Of a stretch of DNA of 35,381 nt, positions 10,377 to 34,251 are shown piece after piece. The stretch comes from an uncultured Nitratiruptor sp. GTDB lineage: Bacteria; Campylobacterota; Campylobacteria; Campylobacterales; Nitratiruptoraceae. Every line of letters begins with the position of its first letter. Position 1 is the stretch's first letter. The notes beneath the pieces were generated by a model. That model did not search any database and was not told the origin of the DNA. It saw nothing but the letters and a program-made list of their open reading frames with translations. A program made the position numbers and the translations under genes. The DNA is taken from NCBI GenBank assembly GCA_913056105.1, contig CAJXMB010000004.1, forward strand, positions 1-35,381, written 5' to 3'.

Positions 10377-10427
10377 AAATAGCTTATAAATTTATTGAGA
10401 ACACAAGAGATTTTAAAGTTATTTGCG

Positions 10428-10458
10428 ATATAATTGTTAGAGGTGCCCTTAAATATAT
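10428..10458 (+). promoter_or_regulatory. Putative promoter -10 (TATAAT 10429-10434) plus leader motif TGTTAGAGGTGCCCTTAAAT shared with the murJ upstream region
   Basis: Direct sequence comparison with 34177-34206; lies in the only intergenic gap before the pilus/secretion operon. Confidence 0.6.
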
Positions 10459-10485
10459 AAAAAACTTTTTTATTAAAGTAAGAAT

Positions 10486-12004
10486 ATGAAAAAAAAAAGA
10501 ATTTAACACTGTTGTATCCATAAATCCATATTCTAAAACATATTATGAAAATAAAAATGGTAAATTAAAAAAGATTCAAACTCCTAAATTTTCAAGAAAA
10601 AGTTTTTTTATCTCTTTTTTAGCAACAAACAGATATATAACATCTCAACTCGAGATAAACAGAAATATTCCTGAAGAAGATTTAAAAGATGCAATTGAGA
10701 CAAAAGCGTATGAAGAATTGGGGTTAGATCCAACAAAAGAGTATAAAATAGAGATTTTAGAAATCCCTACTCCTCAAACAGATAAAAATAGAAAATTTCA
10801 TATATTTGTTGCTGATCCAGATGATATAAAAAAAGATTTCAATGAAGTTATCCAAAAAATACCCTATATAGACATTATCGCTCCTCTACCTCTCCTTTTT
10901 AAATATATTTATAAAAAAGAGATTTTAGAAGATAGTGGAGTTGATTGCTTTATATATTTTCAAAAAAATGATGCTTTTTTAACTATTTATCAAGAAGGAA
11001 GATATATATATTCAAAATCTCTTAACTACTCTTTAAAAGAGATGAGCGAGAGATTTAACGAAATAAGAGGAGAGAGAGTAGATGAAGATGAATTTATAAG
11101 ATTGCTATCTAAAGAGGGATTAAAGACTACAAATTTTGATATACAAGAGAGTTTAATGAAACTCTTTAATGAAATTTTTCTTAATATCAATGATATTTTG
11201 ATATATGCAAAAAGAACAAATGAGTTAGATAAGATTGATAGATTGTTTATAGGTAGTGAGTATGGTTATGTTTTAGGAGTTGAAGAGTATGCTCAAACAT
11301 ATCTTGGGATAAAATCTTTAGAGCTCTCATTTGATTATGGTTTTTCATATAATGAGCCTTTCATTGATGAGATACATAAACTTATGCAACTCTCAGCTCT
11401 AATGATTTTACAAGAAAACGAAGAGATACCAAGTCTAACAATTTTTAAAAGACCTCCCCCAATATGGCAAAGACCAAGCGGCCAACTTATAGGTGTAACA
11501 GCTGCTAGTATTTTACTATCTTTTTCATACCCTTTATATAATATAGCCTATAACTATAAATTAAAATATGATACTGCTTCTTTAAATAAACAGTATAACA
11601 AAATCCATAAAGAAAGAACCGATTTAGAAAATAGAATAAACTCTTTAAACAGAGAAAAAGAGGAGATCGCTTCTAAAATTAAAAAACAAAACAGTGTTTA
11701 TAAACAAAAAATGAGCATTTTAAATAGTATATATAATAAAAAAGTAAATTATCCTATGAAAGGCAAAATCATTGCTGAACTCTCTCAAGATTTACTAAAT
11801 TTTGGCATAAAAATAAAAAATTTAGACTCAAAAGAGAACAATATAATAATAGATGTTATATCAAATAGTGATAAAAAAATAACAAATTTTATAAAATTTA
11901 TTTCACATAAAAAGATTAATAAATATCATATTGAAACAGATAGGATTGAAAAAGAGAATAATGAAAACAGATACAGAAGTACTTTAAAGGTAGTTATAAA
12001 ATGA
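10486..12004 (+). CDS. GspL/MshI-like (PilM-PilN fusion type) assembly protein, frameshifted at A10 after the start codon
   Basis: ATG 10486 + A10 + GAATTTAAC reads MKKKRI*. With one A fewer it reads MKKKEFNTVVSINPYSKTYYENKNGKLKKIQTPKFSRKSFFISFLATNRYITSQLEINRNIPEEDLKDAIETKAYEE and joins in frame to the listed ORF 10718-12004 (TTG start), with no stop between 10499 and 10718. The protein has an N-terminal actin-like-type region, a TM segment (LIGVTAASILLSFSYPLYNIAY), then coiled coil plus periplasmic domain. Confidence 0.75.
10489..10498 (+). repeat. Poly(A)10 homopolymer directly after the start codon of the operon's first gene
   Basis: gaatATG AAAAAAAAAA GAATTT counted from the sequence; the longest single-base run I noticed in the window. 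Confidence 0.9.
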
Positions 12005-12642
12005 ATCAAGGTAGTATCTTAGAAAAATTAGACTCTTTTCTTTTAACAAAAAAACCAAACGAGAGAGTGATTATATATTTATCTATATTTTTAATATTTT
12101 TTGCCCTATTTTTTCAATACCTTTTTCCTATCACAAAAAAAATGGTTCAAAAAAGTAAAACTAAAAAACAAGAGATTGAAAACAAAATTAAAGAGGATAA
12201 AGATTATATTGCCTCTATTACAATTGATGGCGATAAAGAGTTTTTAATAAAAAAACTAAACAAAGAGATAAAACAATTAAAAACTAAATTTGTAGATATC
12301 AGGGACAAAAATGACTATATAGATTTTCAAATTAAAAATATTAACAATTTAATCTATAATGAAAAAAATTGGGCAAAATTTTTAGACTCACTTGCTAAAA
12401 AAGCTATAAATAATGGTGTTGATATAGATTTTATAAGTAATGAATTTGTAAAAAACAGTCAAAATTTTGGGCATGTTTTGGAAATTGAGATAGGATGTAA
12501 CGGTGGATTTAAAAATATAATAGGATTTATAAACTCTATTGAAGAGAGTGATTTAGTTGTTGATATATATGATATAAATATGAAAAGCAATTTTAATATC
12601 CAAACAGATTTAAGGGTATCGGTATGGGGAATAAATTACTAA
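12001..12642 (+). CDS. PilO/MshJ/GspM-like inner-membrane assembly protein
   Basis: Single N-terminal TM (VIIYLSIFLIFFALFFQYLF) followed by coiled coil and C-terminal domain; ATGA overlap with the upstream gene; position in operon. Confidence 0.65.
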   Translation: MNQGSILEKLDSFLLTKKPNERVIIYLSIFLIFFALFFQYLFPITKKMVQKSKTKKQEIENKIKEDKDYIASITIDGDKEFLIKKLNKEIKQLKTKFVDIRDKNDYIDFQIKNINNLIYNEKNWAKFLDSLAKKAINNGVDIDFISNEFVKNSQNFGHVLEIEIGCNGGFKNIIGFINSIEESDLVVDIYDINMKSNFNIQTDLRVSVWGINY

Positions 12643-13037
12643 TTTTTTTACTATTTTTTTTAATAAATTTTAGTTATGCAAATGATAGTTTCAAAAATAT
12701 TGATAACTTAATAGAAAAAATTAAAATAAAAAGAGTTGGTTTAAATAGTTATGAGATAAAAAAATTAAAAGATCCATTTTTTTATAGCAATAAAAGAATT
12801 ACTTTAAGAGCAAAAAGAAAACTATTCAATAAAACTATTAAACCATATTACAGATTAAGTGCAATTTTTAACGACAAAGCAAAAATAAATGGAAGATGGT
12901 ATAAAATTGGAAGCAGAGTTGGAAAATATAAAATTTTTGATATATGTAGTAACTGTGTTAAACTAAAAAGAGATAAAAAAGTTTTAACACTTTTCCTTGC
13001 TAAAAAAAGCAAAAGAGTTAAGATAACTATAGAGTAA
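12624..13037 (+). CDS. PilP/GspC-HR-like periplasmic pilot/assembly protein
   Basis: Signal peptide (LLIFLLFFLINFSYA) and C-terminal module YRLSAIFNDKAKINGRWYKIGSRVGKYKIFDICSNCVKLKRDKKVLTLFL resembling PilP/HR beta domains; directly upstream of a secretin. Confidence 0.6.
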   Translation: MGNKLLIFLLFFLINFSYANDSFKNIDNLIEKIKIKRVGLNSYEIKKLKDPFFYSNKRITLRAKRKLFNKTIKPYYRLSAIFNDKAKINGRWYKIGSRVGKYKIFDICSNCVKLKRDKKVLTLFLAKKSKRVKITIE

Positions 13038-13051
13038 TTTGGAGGCATAAA

Positions 13052-14488
13052 GTGAATAAAATTTTAAAAAAGATTATTTTGATTTTATTATTTTTTGGCA
13101 ATTCATTACTAATGGCTGATTGTCAAATGCAACTTTTCAATATCTCAAGTGCTCCTGGCACAAGGATTTTGGAGTTTGTTAATCAAATAGCAAATGAGTG
13201 CTCTTTAACAGTTATAGTAAAAGATAGATATGCAAAAAATATTTTAAGAAATAGATTAAACAAAATAGATCTAAAAAATGCTACATTAGATGATGTTTTA
13301 AATATTGTATTAAAAGAGAACAGTCTGAATTATGAATTAAAAGACAGTATTTTAAAAATTTCATATCTAATAACTAAAACTTTTCATATAGATTATATCA
13401 CAACAAAAAGAAAAGGTGAATCAACGACTGATGCATCTGTTGATATTGGAGGCCAATCAAGCGGAGGAGGAGGTTCAGGAAATGATGTCAATAAAATAGA
13501 ATCTAAAGATGAGTTTGATTTTTGGAAAAACACAAAAGAGGAGATATATAGTATCATAAATAGACCTGAAGATTCATATAAAGCACCTGAGCCAATAATA
13601 AATCAAGAAGCTGGACTTATCACAGTTACAGGGACTTTGCCGCAAATTAAAAGAGTTGAAAACTATTTAAAAAATGTGCAAGAAAGACTCCATAAAGAAG
13701 TAATGATTGATGTATCTATAATTGCTGTGACACTAAACAGAGATTTTACAAAAGGTATCGATTGGAGCAGGTTTGCTGCTAATTTTAATGGTACTTTAGA
13801 TTTTAATTATAATGGATCTGGAAGCCAAATTTTAAACCAAACATCATCCAGTGCCTCAACAACAGTCTTTTCATCTCAATTTAATATAAATGGATTACTA
13901 AATTTTTTAAAAACAAATGGAGATGTAAAGATTCTATCAAATCCTAAAATCTTGACTCTAAACAATCAACCAGCTTTAATAACAGTTGGTAAAACAATCA
14001 ATTATAATGTCCCAACAGAGGTTACAATAACTGAAAGTGGAAATTTAGGCACTCAAAGTTATACTCCATCATCTATATTTGTTGGAATTTTACTAAATAT
14101 TACCCCTGAAATTACTGATGATGGATATATTATCTTAAGAATAAACCCTTCTGTTTCAGAGTTAAATGACCCTACACAATTAGAGATTAGCCAAAATCAA
14201 AAGTTTAGAGAGATCGCACCTGATACAAAAGTAAAAAAGATCTCTTCAGTCTTAAAAGTAAAAGATGGCTCAACTATAATAATGGGTGGACTTATTACAA
14301 ATACAAAAAATCTAAGTGTAAATGGTGTTCCTATATTAAAAGATTTGCCTATTATTGGCTATGCATTTAAGAGTCAAAAGCAACAATTTAATAATGTAGA
14401 ATTAGTTTTTGTAATAAAACCAAAAATTATTAAACCAAGTAAAAAAACTATAACATTAAAAGATTTGGGATATAAAAGCATAAAATAA
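13052..14488 (+). CDS. Secretin (MshL/PulD/CtsD-like outer-membrane channel)
   Basis: Signal peptide, LITVTGTLPQIKRVENYLKNVQERLHKEVMIDVSIIAVTLN, NPKILTLNNQPALITVG, STIIMGGLI, PILKDLPIIGYAFKSQ: secretin signatures; Gly-rich linker GGQSSGGGGSG. Confidence 0.92.
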   Translation: MNKILKKIILILLFFGNSLLMADCQMQLFNISSAPGTRILEFVNQIANECSLTVIVKDRYAKNILRNRLNKIDLKNATLDDVLNIVLKENSLNYELKDSILKISYLITKTFHIDYITTKRKGESTTDASVDIGGQSSGGGGSGNDVNKIESKDEFDFWKNTKEEIYSIINRPEDSYKAPEPIINQEAGLITVTGTLPQIKRVENYLKNVQERLHKEVMIDVSIIAVTLNRDFTKGIDWSRFAANFNGTLDFNYNGSGSQILNQTSSSASTTVFSSQFNINGLLNFLKTNGDVKILSNPKILTLNNQPALITVGKTINYNVPTEVTITESGNLGTQSYTPSSIFVGILLNITPEITDDGYIILRINPSVSELNDPTQLEISQNQKFREIAPDTKVKKISSVLKVKDGSTIIMGGLITNTKNLSVNGVPILKDLPIIGYAFKSQKQQFNNVELVFVIKPKIIKPSKKTITLKDLGYKSIK

Positions 14489-14490
14489 GC

Positions 14491-15297
14491 ATGAAAAAAA
14501 GTATATACAAAGAAGCTAAAGAGTGTTTTACTGAAACTGAAGATGCTAAATATTTTATAAGGCTTGATCAATCTGCACTATTTTTAGAAATATTAAAAGA
14601 GACAATTAAAAAGCCTCTTAAAATGATTTTACTGTATGGGGAGCCTGGTGTTGGAAAAACTATGCTTTTAAATAAACTCTATAGTGATATATCTAAAAAA
14701 GAGGAAAATATTTTTCTAATTTCAAGCCCAATTTTAGATGAAGAAAAATTTACTACAACTCTTTATAGAAAACTCTTTTTTGAAGAAGAAGATATCAATT
14801 TTGATAAATTTATTGATCTTATAAATCAAAAACTAAGATTTAATTCAACTACTGTTTTATTGGATGAAGCTCAACTTTATAGTGGCTCTCAAATGGAAAA
14901 AATTAGAATAATCTCTGATACAAGAAAGATAAAATTTGTTATTGCACTTCACAAAACCGACCAAGAAGATGTTATCGCAAAAGAGCACTTTAAAACAAGA
15001 ATTTGGGAAACAATAGAGCTTAAACCTCCAACATTAAATGAGCTTGGCATCTATATCAAAAAAAAGCTTTTGATGAAAAATCTATTTGATATAGCAAATC
15101 AAGTTGATAAAAATTGTATTAAATTTATATATAGATATACAAAAGGAAATTTTAGAGAGACAAATAAATTTATGTATAATCTATTTGAAATTTATGAATA
15201 TTATGAAGAGAGTGCGCCAAATAAAATAGATTATAGAAAAATTTCAAAAAAATTTTTAGAGATGTGTGCTATTAAATTAGGATATATTAATGTATGA
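14491..15297 (+). CDS. ExeA/MshM-type AAA ATPase (CtsP-like)
   Basis: MILLYGEPGVGKTMLLNKLY Walker A and TVLLDEAQLY Walker B; ExeA-like size; directly after the secretin. Confidence 0.8.
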   Translation: MKKSIYKEAKECFTETEDAKYFIRLDQSALFLEILKETIKKPLKMILLYGEPGVGKTMLLNKLYSDISKKEENIFLISSPILDEEKFTTTLYRKLFFEEEDINFDKFIDLINQKLRFNSTTVLLDEAQLYSGSQMEKIRIISDTRKIKFVIALHKTDQEDVIAKEHFKTRIWETIELKPPTLNELGIYIKKKLLMKNLFDIANQVDKNCIKFIYRYTKGNFRETNKFMYNLFEIYEYYEESAPNKIDYRKISKKFLEMCAIKLGYINV

Positions 15298-16102
15298 GAT
15301 AGAAGAGTTAGAAAAGAAGTGGAAAAAATATAGATTTAACAAATATTTCAAAATTGCTTTAACCTCTATTTTAACTATAATCTTTTTCATTGGAATATAT
15401 ACTTTTTTAGATCAATCAAAAAAAGATTTAGAAAAAAAATCTAATAAATTAAAGATTTCAAAAAAGCAAGATATTAAAACAGAAATAGATAATCAAATAG
15501 CAACTTCCAAAAAGAGAAAACTTGATACAAGCATAAGCAAAAAAAAGATAGCAAGCAACAAAAACAAGAAAATAGTTATTGATATAAATAGAAGTATCAA
15601 TGCAAAAGATAAAAATGAAGTGAGAACATCCTTTTTAGCTCCAGATTTAAGTTTTGAAAATAGATTAAATATTATTAAAAAAGAGAAAAAATTTGTAAAA
15701 GCAAAAAAAGAGATTAAAATCAACAAACCTCCTAAAAAGTTAGAGACAAAATTAAATCCTATTAAAAAAGAGAAAAAAATAGTTATAAAAACAACTGATT
15801 CTAAAAATTTTATAGATAGTTTAATAGCAAAATTTGAAAAAGAGAAAAGCCCTAAAATTGCTATTTTTTTATCAAAACATTTTTATAAAGAAAAAAATTA
15901 TAAAGAGTCTTTAAAGTGGGCTATAAGAGCTAATGAACTTGATAGTAACAGTGAAGATAGTTGGGTTTTATTTGCTAAATCTTCTATAAAACTTGGCAAA
16001 AAAGAGGATGCAATAAAAGCACTCAAAGCTTATCTATCTACTCATAACTCTTTTAAAGTAGAAGAGTTATTAAATAGCATCAAAACAGGAGAGTTTAAAT
16101 GA
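15290..16102 (+). CDS. MshN-like TPR protein with N-terminal TM and Lys-rich linker
   Basis: TM ALTSILTIIFFIGIYTFL, Lys-rich low-complexity linker, C-terminal TPR (YKEKNYKESLKWAIRANELDSNSEDSWVLFAKSSIKLGKKEDAIKALKAYL). Confidence 0.65.
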   Translation: MYEIEELEKKWKKYRFNKYFKIALTSILTIIFFIGIYTFLDQSKKDLEKKSNKLKISKKQDIKTEIDNQIATSKKRKLDTSISKKKIASNKNKKIVIDINRSINAKDKNEVRTSFLAPDLSFENRLNIIKKEKKFVKAKKEIKINKPPKKLETKLNPIKKEKKIVIKTTDSKNFIDSLIAKFEKEKSPKIAIFLSKHFYKEKNYKESLKWAIRANELDSNSEDSWVLFAKSSIKLGKKEDAIKALKAYLSTHNSFKVEELLNSIKTGEFK

Positions 16103-16647
16103 GATACTTTATAGTTATTTTTATTTTATTAACAAATTTTTATGCAAATGAGATATCGGTTAATCAATTAATCAAATATTACCAAGCAGGAGATTATAAA
16201 AAGGTATGCCTATATGGTATAAAAATTTTTCACAAATTAAAAAGAGATGAAAATTTGGTCTCTATGTATGGAATATCTTGTTTAAAATCAGATTATATAG
16301 ATAGGCTTGCTATTCCAGCTGTCGTTTTAAAAAAGAGTAAAAGTGGCAGAAAAAATGCAATATATTTTTTAACAATTATGCTTCAAAAAAAGATTCTATT
16401 AAGCTCTTTATTTGATAATTTTCAAATATCAAATGTAAAATTTCCTAATACCGACTATATACTTTCTAAAATTTTTAGATTATATCAAGAAAAGAGATAC
16501 AAAAAAAATAAAAATGAACTAATTTTTAAAGACCTAACAAACAAAGATAAAACATATAAATTGATTTTAATAAAAGATAAAGAACCTAAAATAGAGCTAT
16601 TGGAGTTAATAAACAATAAAATAGTAGATAAACATCTATACTGGTGA
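16099..16647 (+). CDS. Uncharacterised exported protein of the pilus/secretion operon
   Basis: Signal peptide MRYFIVIFILLTNFYANE; TPR-like N-terminal helices; no family recognised; start overlaps the upstream stop. Confidence 0.6.
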   Translation: MRYFIVIFILLTNFYANEISVNQLIKYYQAGDYKKVCLYGIKIFHKLKRDENLVSMYGISCLKSDYIDRLAIPAVVLKKSKSGRKNAIYFLTIMLQKKILLSSLFDNFQISNVKFPNTDYILSKIFRLYQEKRYKKNKNELIFKDLTNKDKTYKLILIKDKEPKIELLELINNKIVDKHLYW

Positions 16648-16654
16648 GGATAAA

Positions 16655-18370
16655 ATGGAAAAGATTTTACCTCTACTTTTTAAAAAATCTAAAATACCTT
16701 CTGAGATTGTCAACAGGATTTTAAAAAATTATACTCCCAAAAATGAAAAAGAGATAATCAATAGCTTAATTAAACAAAAATTTTTTGCTAAAGAGATTAG
16801 AGTTGGAGATATTAGTATTGAAGAGATTAATGAAGTTTTACCAGATGATTTACAAGAGAAGATTTTAAAAAATTTAGCATCTATTTTAAATATAGAGTAT
16901 ATAGATTTAGACTCAATTGATATTGATTTTAAATTAGCCTCAAAAGTTCCTTTAAATCAATTAAAAAAGATTGAAGCCATTCCAATAAAAGAAGAAGATA
17001 TCCATATTGTTGTTGCATTTAAAGATCCAACTGATATTTATGCAAAAGAGTTTGTCCAAAGATTTTTTCCAAAAAAATTAATCAGACCAGCAATCTCTCC
17101 TAAAAAACAGATTGATAATTTTTTAAATAGACTTGAAGTAAATGAGAGTGTTAAAGATTTAATTAGTGAAATTAGAAAAGAGATTGTAACTGGAGCAATA
17201 AAAGAAGATGGTGACTCAAGTGCTATTTTGAAACTCATCTATATAATATTACAAACAGCAATTTTATCAAAAGGGAGCGATATACATATTGAACCAACGG
17301 AAAAAAACTGTATTGTTAGAACAAGAATTGATGGAATACTGACAGAAAGTTTTATCTTTGATAAAGATATCTACCCTCCTCTATCTTCAAGATTAAAACT
17401 TTTAGCTAATCTTGATATTGCTGAAAAGAGAAAGCCTCAAGATGGAAGATTTTCTGCTACAGTTGGTAAAAAAGAGTATGATTTTAGAATATCAACTCTT
17501 CCGATCTTTAATGGCGAGTCGATTGTAATGAGAATTTTAGATAAAACAAAAGCTATGATTAAACTTGAAGATGCTGGTATGAGTGAATATAACTATAAAA
17601 TATTTACTAAATCACTAAAAACTCCATATGGAATCATTCTTGTAACAGGTCCTACTGGAAGTGGTAAATCTACCACTCTATATGGTGCTTTGAATATGTT
17701 AAGAAGTGTAGAAAAAAAGATTATTACAGTTGAAGACCCTATCGAATACCAGATGAACCTTGTTCAACAATCCCAAGTTCAACCAAAAATAGGCTATACA
17801 TTTGCTTCTGCACTGAGGTCAATTCTAAGACAAGACCCTGATATTATAATGGTTGGAGAAATTAGAGATCAAGAGACACTTAGAATTGCTATTCAAGCAG
17901 CATCAACTGGACACCTTGTTTTATCAACTCTACATACGAATGATGCAATAAGTTCAATCACAAGAATGGCTGATATGGGAATTGAGCCATATCTAATAAG
18001 CGGCTCTCTCATTGCCATAGAGGCTCAAAGATTGGTTAGAAAGATATGTCCATATTGCAAAGAAAAAACAATTCTTTCTCCTAATATTATAGAAGATATA
18101 AAAGAGTATCTACCTAAAGATTATCAGTTTTACAAAGGAAAAGGTTGTAAACATTGTAATATGACTGGATACTTGGGAAGAGAGATGGTATCTGAAGTTT
18201 TATATGTAGATGAAGAGCTATCAAGTATGATTGCAAGGGGAGATAGCAAAGAGAAAATTTATGAGTATGCTAAAGAGCATGGGTTTGTTACAATGTTTCA
18301 AGATGGTATAAATAAAGCATTAAGGGGTGAAACAACAATTGAAGAGGTAATGAGGGTTACAAGAGTATGA
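16655..18370 (+). CDS. GspE/PilB/MshE-like assembly ATPase (CtsE-like)
   Basis: GSDIHIEPTEKNCIVRTRIDG, LVTGPTGSGKSTTLYGAL, ITVEDPIEYQ, RQDPDIIMVGEIRDQET, STGHLVLSTLHTNDA, plus CPYC...CKHC zinc module. Confidence 0.95.
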   Translation: MEKILPLLFKKSKIPSEIVNRILKNYTPKNEKEIINSLIKQKFFAKEIRVGDISIEEINEVLPDDLQEKILKNLASILNIEYIDLDSIDIDFKLASKVPLNQLKKIEAIPIKEEDIHIVVAFKDPTDIYAKEFVQRFFPKKLIRPAISPKKQIDNFLNRLEVNESVKDLISEIRKEIVTGAIKEDGDSSAILKLIYIILQTAILSKGSDIHIEPTEKNCIVRTRIDGILTESFIFDKDIYPPLSSRLKLLANLDIAEKRKPQDGRFSATVGKKEYDFRISTLPIFNGESIVMRILDKTKAMIKLEDAGMSEYNYKIFTKSLKTPYGIILVTGPTGSGKSTTLYGALNMLRSVEKKIITVEDPIEYQMNLVQQSQVQPKIGYTFASALRSILRQDPDIIMVGEIRDQETLRIAIQAASTGHLVLSTLHTNDAISSITRMADMGIEPYLISGSLIAIEAQRLVRKICPYCKEKTILSPNIIEDIKEYLPKDYQFYKGKGCKHCNMTGYLGREMVSEVLYVDEELSSMIARGDSKEKIYEYAKEHGFVTMFQDGINKALRGETTIEEVMRVTRV

Positions 18371-19611
18371 ACTACTATATAGCAACAGTTCTCTCAAGAG
18401 GAAAAAAAGAGAGTTTTTTATTAAAAGCTGAAAACAAAAAAGAGGCGCTAAATCTTGCAAAAATAAAACATAGTGGAATAATTTTAAAGGTTGAAGAGAC
18501 TAATCCACCTTTAGAAGATAGAATTGAAGAGTTTAAGCAAAAATTTTTAAAATTTATGAAAGAGAAAAAGGTAAAGCAAGACCAACTAATTGCCTCTATT
18601 AGACAACTTGCTGTTATGACAAATGCTGGAATTCCTCTAAATGAGGCTATAAAAGAGATTGCAAACTCTACAGTTGATAAAAATCTATCACAAATTCTTT
18701 CAAAAATGGGAGAAGATATAGATTCTGGACTTAGTCTATCTCAAGCAGCCGAAAATTTTAAATACCAATTAGGTCTGCTTACTATAACAATGTTAAAACT
18801 TGGAGAGCAAACTGGTAATATGCCTGAAGCTCTTTTTAGCTTGGCAAATATTTTAGAGGAAATTAGAGACAATATTGCAAAATTTAAAAAAGCTATTAGA
18901 TATCCACTTATAACACTCTCTGCTATGGCTATAGCTTTTGTAGTTCTTATTATGTATGTTGTTCCAAAGTTTAAGTCAATTTTTGAAAGATTCCACGCCC
19001 AGCTTCCACTTCCAACAAGAATTCTGCTTTGGTTAGAACACGCTTTTTCAACATATGGATTGCAGATTTTAATAGGTTTTATTATAACCATATCAGTAAT
19101 TTTGTACCTTTATAGAAACAATGAAAAATTTAAATACTACACAGATAAATATCTATTAAAAATCTATTTAATAAAAGATATCATATTTTATGCAACACTT
19201 AGTAGATTCTTTTTAGTTTTTAGTGAACTTGTTGCAGCAGGAATTCCAGTAGCAGATGCATTGGATCGCTCTGTCTCTATGATAGATAATAGTTATATTA
19301 AAGAGAGACTCAATTTAGTTAAAACATATGTTGGAAGAGGAACCACTCTAACGGAAGCCTTTGAAGAGACAAAACTTTTTGAAAATATGATTATACAGAT
19401 GATAAAAGCGGGTGAAACAAGTGGACAGCTTGAGGATATGATGGAAAATGTAACAGATTACTATAGAATGAAATTTAACTATATTTTAGATAATCTATCA
19501 TCATTTATTGAGCCAATTCTTTTAACTGTAATTGCGGTTTTAGTAATTCTTTTAGCTCTTGGTATATTTTTACCTATGTGGGATATGGCAAAAGCAGTCA
19601 AAGGGCATTGA
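18367..19611 (+). CDS. GspF/PilC/MshG-like inner-membrane platform protein (CtsF-like)
   Basis: Two repeated GspF domains (ASIRQLAVMTNAGIPLNEAI; RFFLVFSELVAAGIPVADAL), MIKAGETSGQLEDMM, C-terminal TM; ATGA overlap with the GspE-like gene. Confidence 0.93.
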   Translation: MNYYIATVLSRGKKESFLLKAENKKEALNLAKIKHSGIILKVEETNPPLEDRIEEFKQKFLKFMKEKKVKQDQLIASIRQLAVMTNAGIPLNEAIKEIANSTVDKNLSQILSKMGEDIDSGLSLSQAAENFKYQLGLLTITMLKLGEQTGNMPEALFSLANILEEIRDNIAKFKKAIRYPLITLSAMAIAFVVLIMYVVPKFKSIFERFHAQLPLPTRILLWLEHAFSTYGLQILIGFIITISVILYLYRNNEKFKYYTDKYLLKIYLIKDIIFYATLSRFFLVFSELVAAGIPVADALDRSVSMIDNSYIKERLNLVKTYVGRGTTLTEAFEETKLFENMIIQMIKAGETSGQLEDMMENVTDYYRMKFNYILDNLSSFIEPILLTVIAVLVILLALGIFLPMWDMAKAVKGH

Positions 19612-34163: not shown

Positions 34164-34175
34164 AATTTTCTCCGT

Positions 34176-34206
34176 ATATAATTGTTAGATGTGCCCTAAA
34201 TTTATA
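34176..34206 (+). promoter_or_regulatory. Putative promoter -10 (TATAAT 34177-34182) plus leader motif TGTTAGATGTGCCCTAAATT shared with the pilus/secretion operon
   Basis: Direct comparison with 10428-10458; same spacing from TATAAT to GTGCCC (8 nt). Confidence 0.6.
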
Positions 34207-34209
34207 TAG

Positions 34210-34251
34210 AAATATACCAAAAAAGAGCTTAAGTTATTTTTTGGTATATTT
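34210..34251 (+). promoter_or_regulatory. Perfect 15-bp inverted repeat (hairpin) just upstream of the murJ start codon
   Basis: AAATATACCAAAAAA (34210-34224) / TTTTTTGGTATATTT (34237-34251) with 12-nt loop GAGCTTAAGTTA; murJ ATG at 34258. Confidence 0.75.

Follow-up and report, generated by a model that had tools for sequence, protein, structure and literature searches.

The first gene of a conserved nine-gene operon for a pilus/DNA-uptake machine is put out of frame in this genome by a run of ten A residues directly after its start codon. We consider it somewhat probable (about 0.55) that the run reflects a real and recent A9-to-A10 replication slip, i.e., an incidental and probably reversible OFF allele in an operon under relaxed constraint. 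The window, that is, the whole stretch of 35,381 nt that was analyzed, is contig C4 of a 1.27-Mb, 121-contig draft genome of 85% completeness. The genome is related to MAGs of the Campylobacterales, of which several carry the label Nitratiruptor or Hydrogenimonas; from these relatives we infer a vent origin. The features of the locus are as follows.

10377 to 10485, plus strand: intergenic spacer from era to the broken gene, without the promoter-like block and TTAGGAATATAYATG start region of the sister genomes
10401 to 10450, plus strand: end of a MITE-like repeat (terminal inverted repeat ...TATAATTGTTAGAGGTGCCCT), sharing about 80% identity with a full copy across 50 bp
10486 to 10506, plus strand: start codon and truncated six-codon frame (MKKKRI, stop), read directly
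10489 to 10498, plus strand: A10 tract, where the two closest sister species have A9 (from direct reading and sister comparison)
10490 to 12004, plus strand: predicted PilM/GspL-type (MshI-position) open frame with ASKHA-fold domain, membrane helix and periplasmic ferredoxin-like domain
10718 to 12004, plus strand: ORF from TTG 10718, which is residue 77 of the open frame
12001 to 12642, plus strand: PilO-like protein (MshJ position), its ATG overlapping the stop of the first gene (ATGA)
12624 to 13037, plus strand: small operon protein (MshK/CtsR position) with no family match
13052 to 14488, plus strand: secretin, MshL equivalog model
14491 to 15297, plus strand: AAA P-loop ATPase (MshM/CtsP position)
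15290 to 16102, plus strand: TPR-like protein (MshN position)
16099 to 16647, plus strand: small operon protein of unknown family
16655 to 18370, plus strand: assembly ATPase of the GspE/PilB/MshE type
18367 to 19611, plus strand: inner-membrane platform of the GspF/PilC/MshG type

The operon lies between era and uvrD and is of a conserved MshI-to-MshG/Cts-like kind. The original prediction had placed the broken gene at the head of an operon of adjoining genes, and synteny of all nine genes in five related genomes bears this out; the eight genes after the first are all full-length and syntenic. Direct reading shows an ATG at 10486-10488, the A10 tract at 10489-10498 and then GAATTTAACACTG. As sequenced, the frame runs ATG AAA AAA AAA AGA ATT TAA, with its stop at 10504-10506, and an A11 version would end after 12 codons; both readings had been given in the original prediction and proved correct. 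The frame downstream of the tract is open from 10490 for 504 codons and a stop (12002-12004). It is preceded by TGA (10487), and its earliest ATG, GTG or TTG is the TTG at 10718, as previously stated. No second lesion was found in the 505 codons of this frame, and the sisters carry A9 in frame; the lesion is thus of one base in an otherwise intact gene, as had been proposed, and an ancient pseudogene was rejected on the same ground. The tract itself is MKKK spelled in AAA codons, and the oddity lies in the broken frame.

The open frame gave no sequence match in Pfam, NCBIfam or PDB. Its AlphaFold model (mean pLDDT 84.9) has PilM as top Foldseek match (PDB 5eou, E 6e-14; 2ych, E 1.5e-10), with further matches to FtsA and GspL/EpsL (1yf5, 4pht). 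In the predicted layout, an actin-like (ASKHA) cytoplasmic domain is followed by a long helix that includes a membrane span, and a ferredoxin-like domain forms the end of the chain; neighboring genes encode a PilO/N-like protein, a secretin, an E-type ATPase and an F-type platform. Judging from the model and this setting, the product is a putative PilM/GspL-type assembly protein with the layout of GspL (or of a PilM-PilN fusion). Its predicted fold is common to PilM/PilN and GspL/EpsL, but its sequence identity to solved relatives is about 10%. The genome also holds a paralogous GspL-like gene (contig C79) and, on contig C71, another F-type platform gene.

If translation began at TTG 10718 or at some non-canonical codon, the upstream frame would be irrelevant. 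The TTG is the start of the ORF in a mechanical sense, and ATG 10486 has a weak Shine-Dalgarno sequence that lies close to it (AAG-AAT-ATG). However, the 76 residues before TTG 10718 hold the invariant I11, Y14, N59-P61, D64-L65 and Y74-E75 and contribute five strands and one helix to the first subdomain of the PilM-like fold, and all other complete orthologues begin at the MKKK position or nearby. Since a TTG start would lose a conserved subdomain and its invariant residues, it is not credible as a rescue start; we rejected TTG 10718 as the true start on conservation and structure, and this reading is scarcely to be believed. The gene is best annotated as 5′-frameshifted, not as a TTG-started ORF.

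In the two closest relatives, G004 and G002, whose first gene products are 67% and 65% identical to the one studied here, the homologous codons read ATG, A9 and G, in frame. The other three of the five (G003, G001, and G005) have G-interrupted (AAA/AAG) starts, also in frame. Of the 97 other distinct orthologues, one is truncated by the end of its contig; the remaining 96, whose 5′ ends are complete, all start in frame. A run of nine bases at the start is found in four orthologues, namely the two sister-species genes and two Sulfurovum records, and the rest have fewer than nine. The Sulfurovum orthologues (L126, L138) have TTG followed by A9, in frame, as an independent long tract at the homologous place. 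Three orthologues (L148, reverse, ~15794; L144, reverse, ~17344; L144, ~342) lack ATG, GTG, or TTG near the expected start and possibly use ATT or CTG. No viral relatives were found. The likely state in the closest relatives is A9, and one A would therefore have been gained in this genome, most likely recently; the comparison of A9 in two sister species with A10 here is one between species only.

The extra A might instead be a sequencing or assembly error in a genome that is truly A9 and has an intact gene, an alternative that the original prediction had itself named. The A10 belongs to the longest homopolymer class in the genome, of which there are exactly two members in the 1.27-Mb assembly, against 31 tracts of A9. 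By inspection, 25 of these 33 tracts of at least nine lie in frame within an ORF, six lie outside coding sequence or precede a start, and two break a gene start; both broken starts sit on the longest tracts. The second of them is the start of a thioredoxin-like secreted protein (L040:966-1370, contig C8), in which a T9 tract after the ATG (~985) puts the signal peptide out of frame; the gene is intact in G004. The other A10 of the genome (L033:1502-1511, contig C79) is in frame, in a likely membrane helix of the gene that directly follows the paralogous GspL-like gene, and a shared pattern was rejected since that tract leaves its frame unbroken. Further in favor of error, the draft is incomplete, in 121 contigs, and comes with no coverage data. 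Against it, 382 kb of the genome were surveyed for frameshifts relative to G004, and 215 non-overlapping orthologue alignments (203 kb) held no credible internal frameshift, with 388 A/T tracts of at least seven inside one-frame alignments. The single candidate of the survey was rejected as an antisense shadow ORF, and an assembly riddled with homopolymer errors can be dismissed. Moreover, many contigs appear to end in a ~270-bp repeat, a hint at short-read data, in which homopolymer indels are few, and the acceleration of the operon and its altered 5′ region, described below, do not depend on the base count of the tract. The survey thus weakens the error explanation without removing it. As the tract belongs to the longest class and A10 is one consensus base count, we keep error as a second choice, unlikely but ahead of the other rivals.

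Mismatch repair bears on whether a real slip could revert. In none of the 26 family and order genomes surveyed did MutL (TIGR00585) score above cut-off; this genome, one of the 26, gave no match, and the MutS1 profile found only a weak, MutS2-like match here. Homopolymers should slip readily in such a lineage, and the absence of MutL means that the slip may be reversible. The original prediction went further and proposed a phase-variable contingency locus, in which a maintained tract would let a fraction of cells switch the machine. The tract does lie directly behind the start codon of the first gene in the operon and breaks its frame, its hypermutability would follow from the missing MutL throughout the family, A9 is retained in two sister species, and A/T-tract switching has a precedent in the same phylum (PMC7677240). 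A contingency locus would however be expected in both ON and OFF states among relatives, and the OFF state is confined to this genome (0 of the 96 complete orthologues). In addition, three of the five nearest relatives have no long uninterrupted tract at these codons, and A9 is what MKKK in AAA codons gives in an AT-rich genome, so that the tract is no longer than needed. Other signs of maintained long repeats were not found among the 33 A/T tracts of 9-10 in 1.27 Mb, and contingency loci of Campylobacter are mostly built on G/C tracts (PMC8355987). We saw no sign of an evolved contingency locus or dedicated switch, and although such a switch is possible it is unsupported; we regard it as improbable, and the same holds for population-level ON/OFF switching of a whole pilus/DNA-uptake machine by homopolymer slippage in a free-living vent Campylobacterota without mismatch repair. 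Should reads turn out to hold mixtures of tract lengths, homopolymer phase variation would extend to the pilus/DNA-uptake machinery of environmental Campylobacterota.

Alternatively, the A10 gene may work as it is, with slippage of RNA polymerase or the ribosome restoring the frame in a fraction of the product. Runs of A9-A11 are slippery, and there are several examples of such rescue: the poly(A) tract that interrupts a secretion-system gene of Citrobacter rodentium, tssM1 (A11), is rescued in ~20% of the product (PMC4256274), poly(A) runs of endosymbionts yield 12-50% corrected transcripts (PMC5009743), and type III secretion genes of Shigella exemplify poly(A) recoding. Here, however, the frame needs -1 or +2 bases, whereas slippage during transcription of A/T runs overwhelmingly yields +1 insertions (PMC5574713). 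In contrast to tssM1, the favored +1 slip would give A11 and leave the frame broken, with a stop after 12 codons, and no relative uses such an arrangement (97 other distinct orthologues). As only -1 or +2 restores the frame, rescue is probably weak, and the suggestion of the original prediction that RNA-polymerase slippage could save the gene found no support, at least for efficient rescue; a functional A10 gene seems very unlikely to us.

The preferred reading, a recent slip in an operon under relaxed constraint, draws on two points that were absent from the original prediction, the first being faster evolution across the whole operon. We used a relative-rate test on sites invariant in the five relatives, treating sites as independent and taking the flanking genes as sole control. 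This genome (G000) differs at 219 of 1635 such sites in the operon vs. 115 of 2451 in the flanking genes. Unique changes in operon and flanking genes numbered 58 and 75 on the G003 branch and 73 and 214 on the G001 branch, neither of which showed the operon bias of the G000 branch (Fisher p = 1.7e-5 and 4.6e-24, respectively). Maximum-likelihood branches, on weakly supported topologies, gave G000/G003 ratios of ~3.0 for the rest of the operon and ~1.3 for its neighbors. The flanking gene at 1406-2677 is also fast-evolving. At 37 of 38 sites the sister residue was shared by at least one outgroup, and the outgroup majority favored G000 at five. Since outgroups mostly have the sister residue, the acceleration belongs to this branch and does not stem from a foreign copy; a foreign or paralogous copy behind the long branch was rejected on these residues and on the syntenic position of the locus. 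The acceleration shows signs of relaxed constraint in this lineage, but it could reflect adaptive change instead.

The second point concerns the region upstream of the gene. The era-to-gene spacing is 109 bp, vs. ~160-190 bp in the sisters, which share an upstream block (TTAAGTAATATTGAGTTAAAAT in G004 and G002, similar in the others) and, in G004, G002, and G003, have TTAGGAATRTAYATG at the gene start. Both the promoter-like block and the Shine-Dalgarno sequence of the sisters are absent from the 109-bp region, which holds the MITE end. No Rfam RNA element was found upstream of the broken gene. The MITE end contains TATAAT and could thereby act as a promoter source. The full element (~270 bp; copy at L157:6226-6496) has terminal inverted repeats AGGGCACCTCTAAYAATTATATA and no coding sequence that we noticed, and its terminal motif TTAGAGGTGCCC occurs 105 times in the assembly with at most one mismatch, vs. 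once for the reversed pattern. In the window, the repeat occurs at 10401-10450 and 34174-34211. Many of its end motifs lie 40-60 bp from the end of a contig. Single ends that contain TATAAT are often located a short way upstream of genes, and the sister G004 has a few solo motifs as well.

Together, the faster evolution of the operon and its altered upstream region point to decay rather than to a dedicated switch. The gene has one lesion in an operon that evolves faster throughout, yet the operon's other genes are intact and decay is not far advanced. Most likely, the lineage is beginning to neglect its pilus/DNA-uptake machine. Under this hypothesis, replication slippage would have added one A where the PilM/GspL-type gene encodes its initial MKKK. 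On the same view, constraint on the operon was already relaxed in this lineage, and its original upstream region is altered around the MITE end. If the sampled cells do carry the allele, ribosomes would stop after six codons, so that hardly any PilM/GspL-like protein, or none, is made, and expression of the downstream genes, coupled through ATGA, may fall as well through lost coupling or polarity. With no MutL-dependent mismatch repair, the tract could probably slip back. By analogy, the event would be ordinary in kind, as one-base homopolymer slips are already known in the A/T tracts of flgS, flgR, flhB, fliP, and fliR of C. jejuni (PMC7677240). Those slips likewise concern the same phylum, a one-base change early in a gene for a large envelope machine and a reversible OFF state, so that an incidental reversible slip needs no special mechanism. 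They differ in having been seen in populations and with reversion in flagellar genes, whereas the present case is one consensus at codons 2-4 in a pilus/DNA-uptake operon. One-base OFF alleles in AT-rich lineages lacking MutL are thus best read by comparing sisters, the direction of the slip and the constraint on the operon.

We take the gene types of the operon and their order to recall the Cts DNA-uptake operon of C. jejuni, a likeness judged on these features. In the Cts operon, the secretin, P-loop ATPase, E and F genes occur within the order R-D-P-X-E-F; the genome studied here also encodes ComEC and DprA. Natural loss-of-function mutations in the C. jejuni cts operon are known from ST-50 (PMC10893306) and are comparable in that natural isolates carry a frameshift or nonsense change in a single gene of a T2SS/T4P-like operon for uptake. 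They fall in ctsD, ctsE, ctsR, or ctsF, however, and the gene broken here is the PilM/GspL-type first gene of an operon whose Cts identity is by gene types and order. Among the other products of the operon, the TPR-like protein (15290-16102) is the least conserved, with ~42% identity to the sisters, vs. 60-76% for most of the rest.
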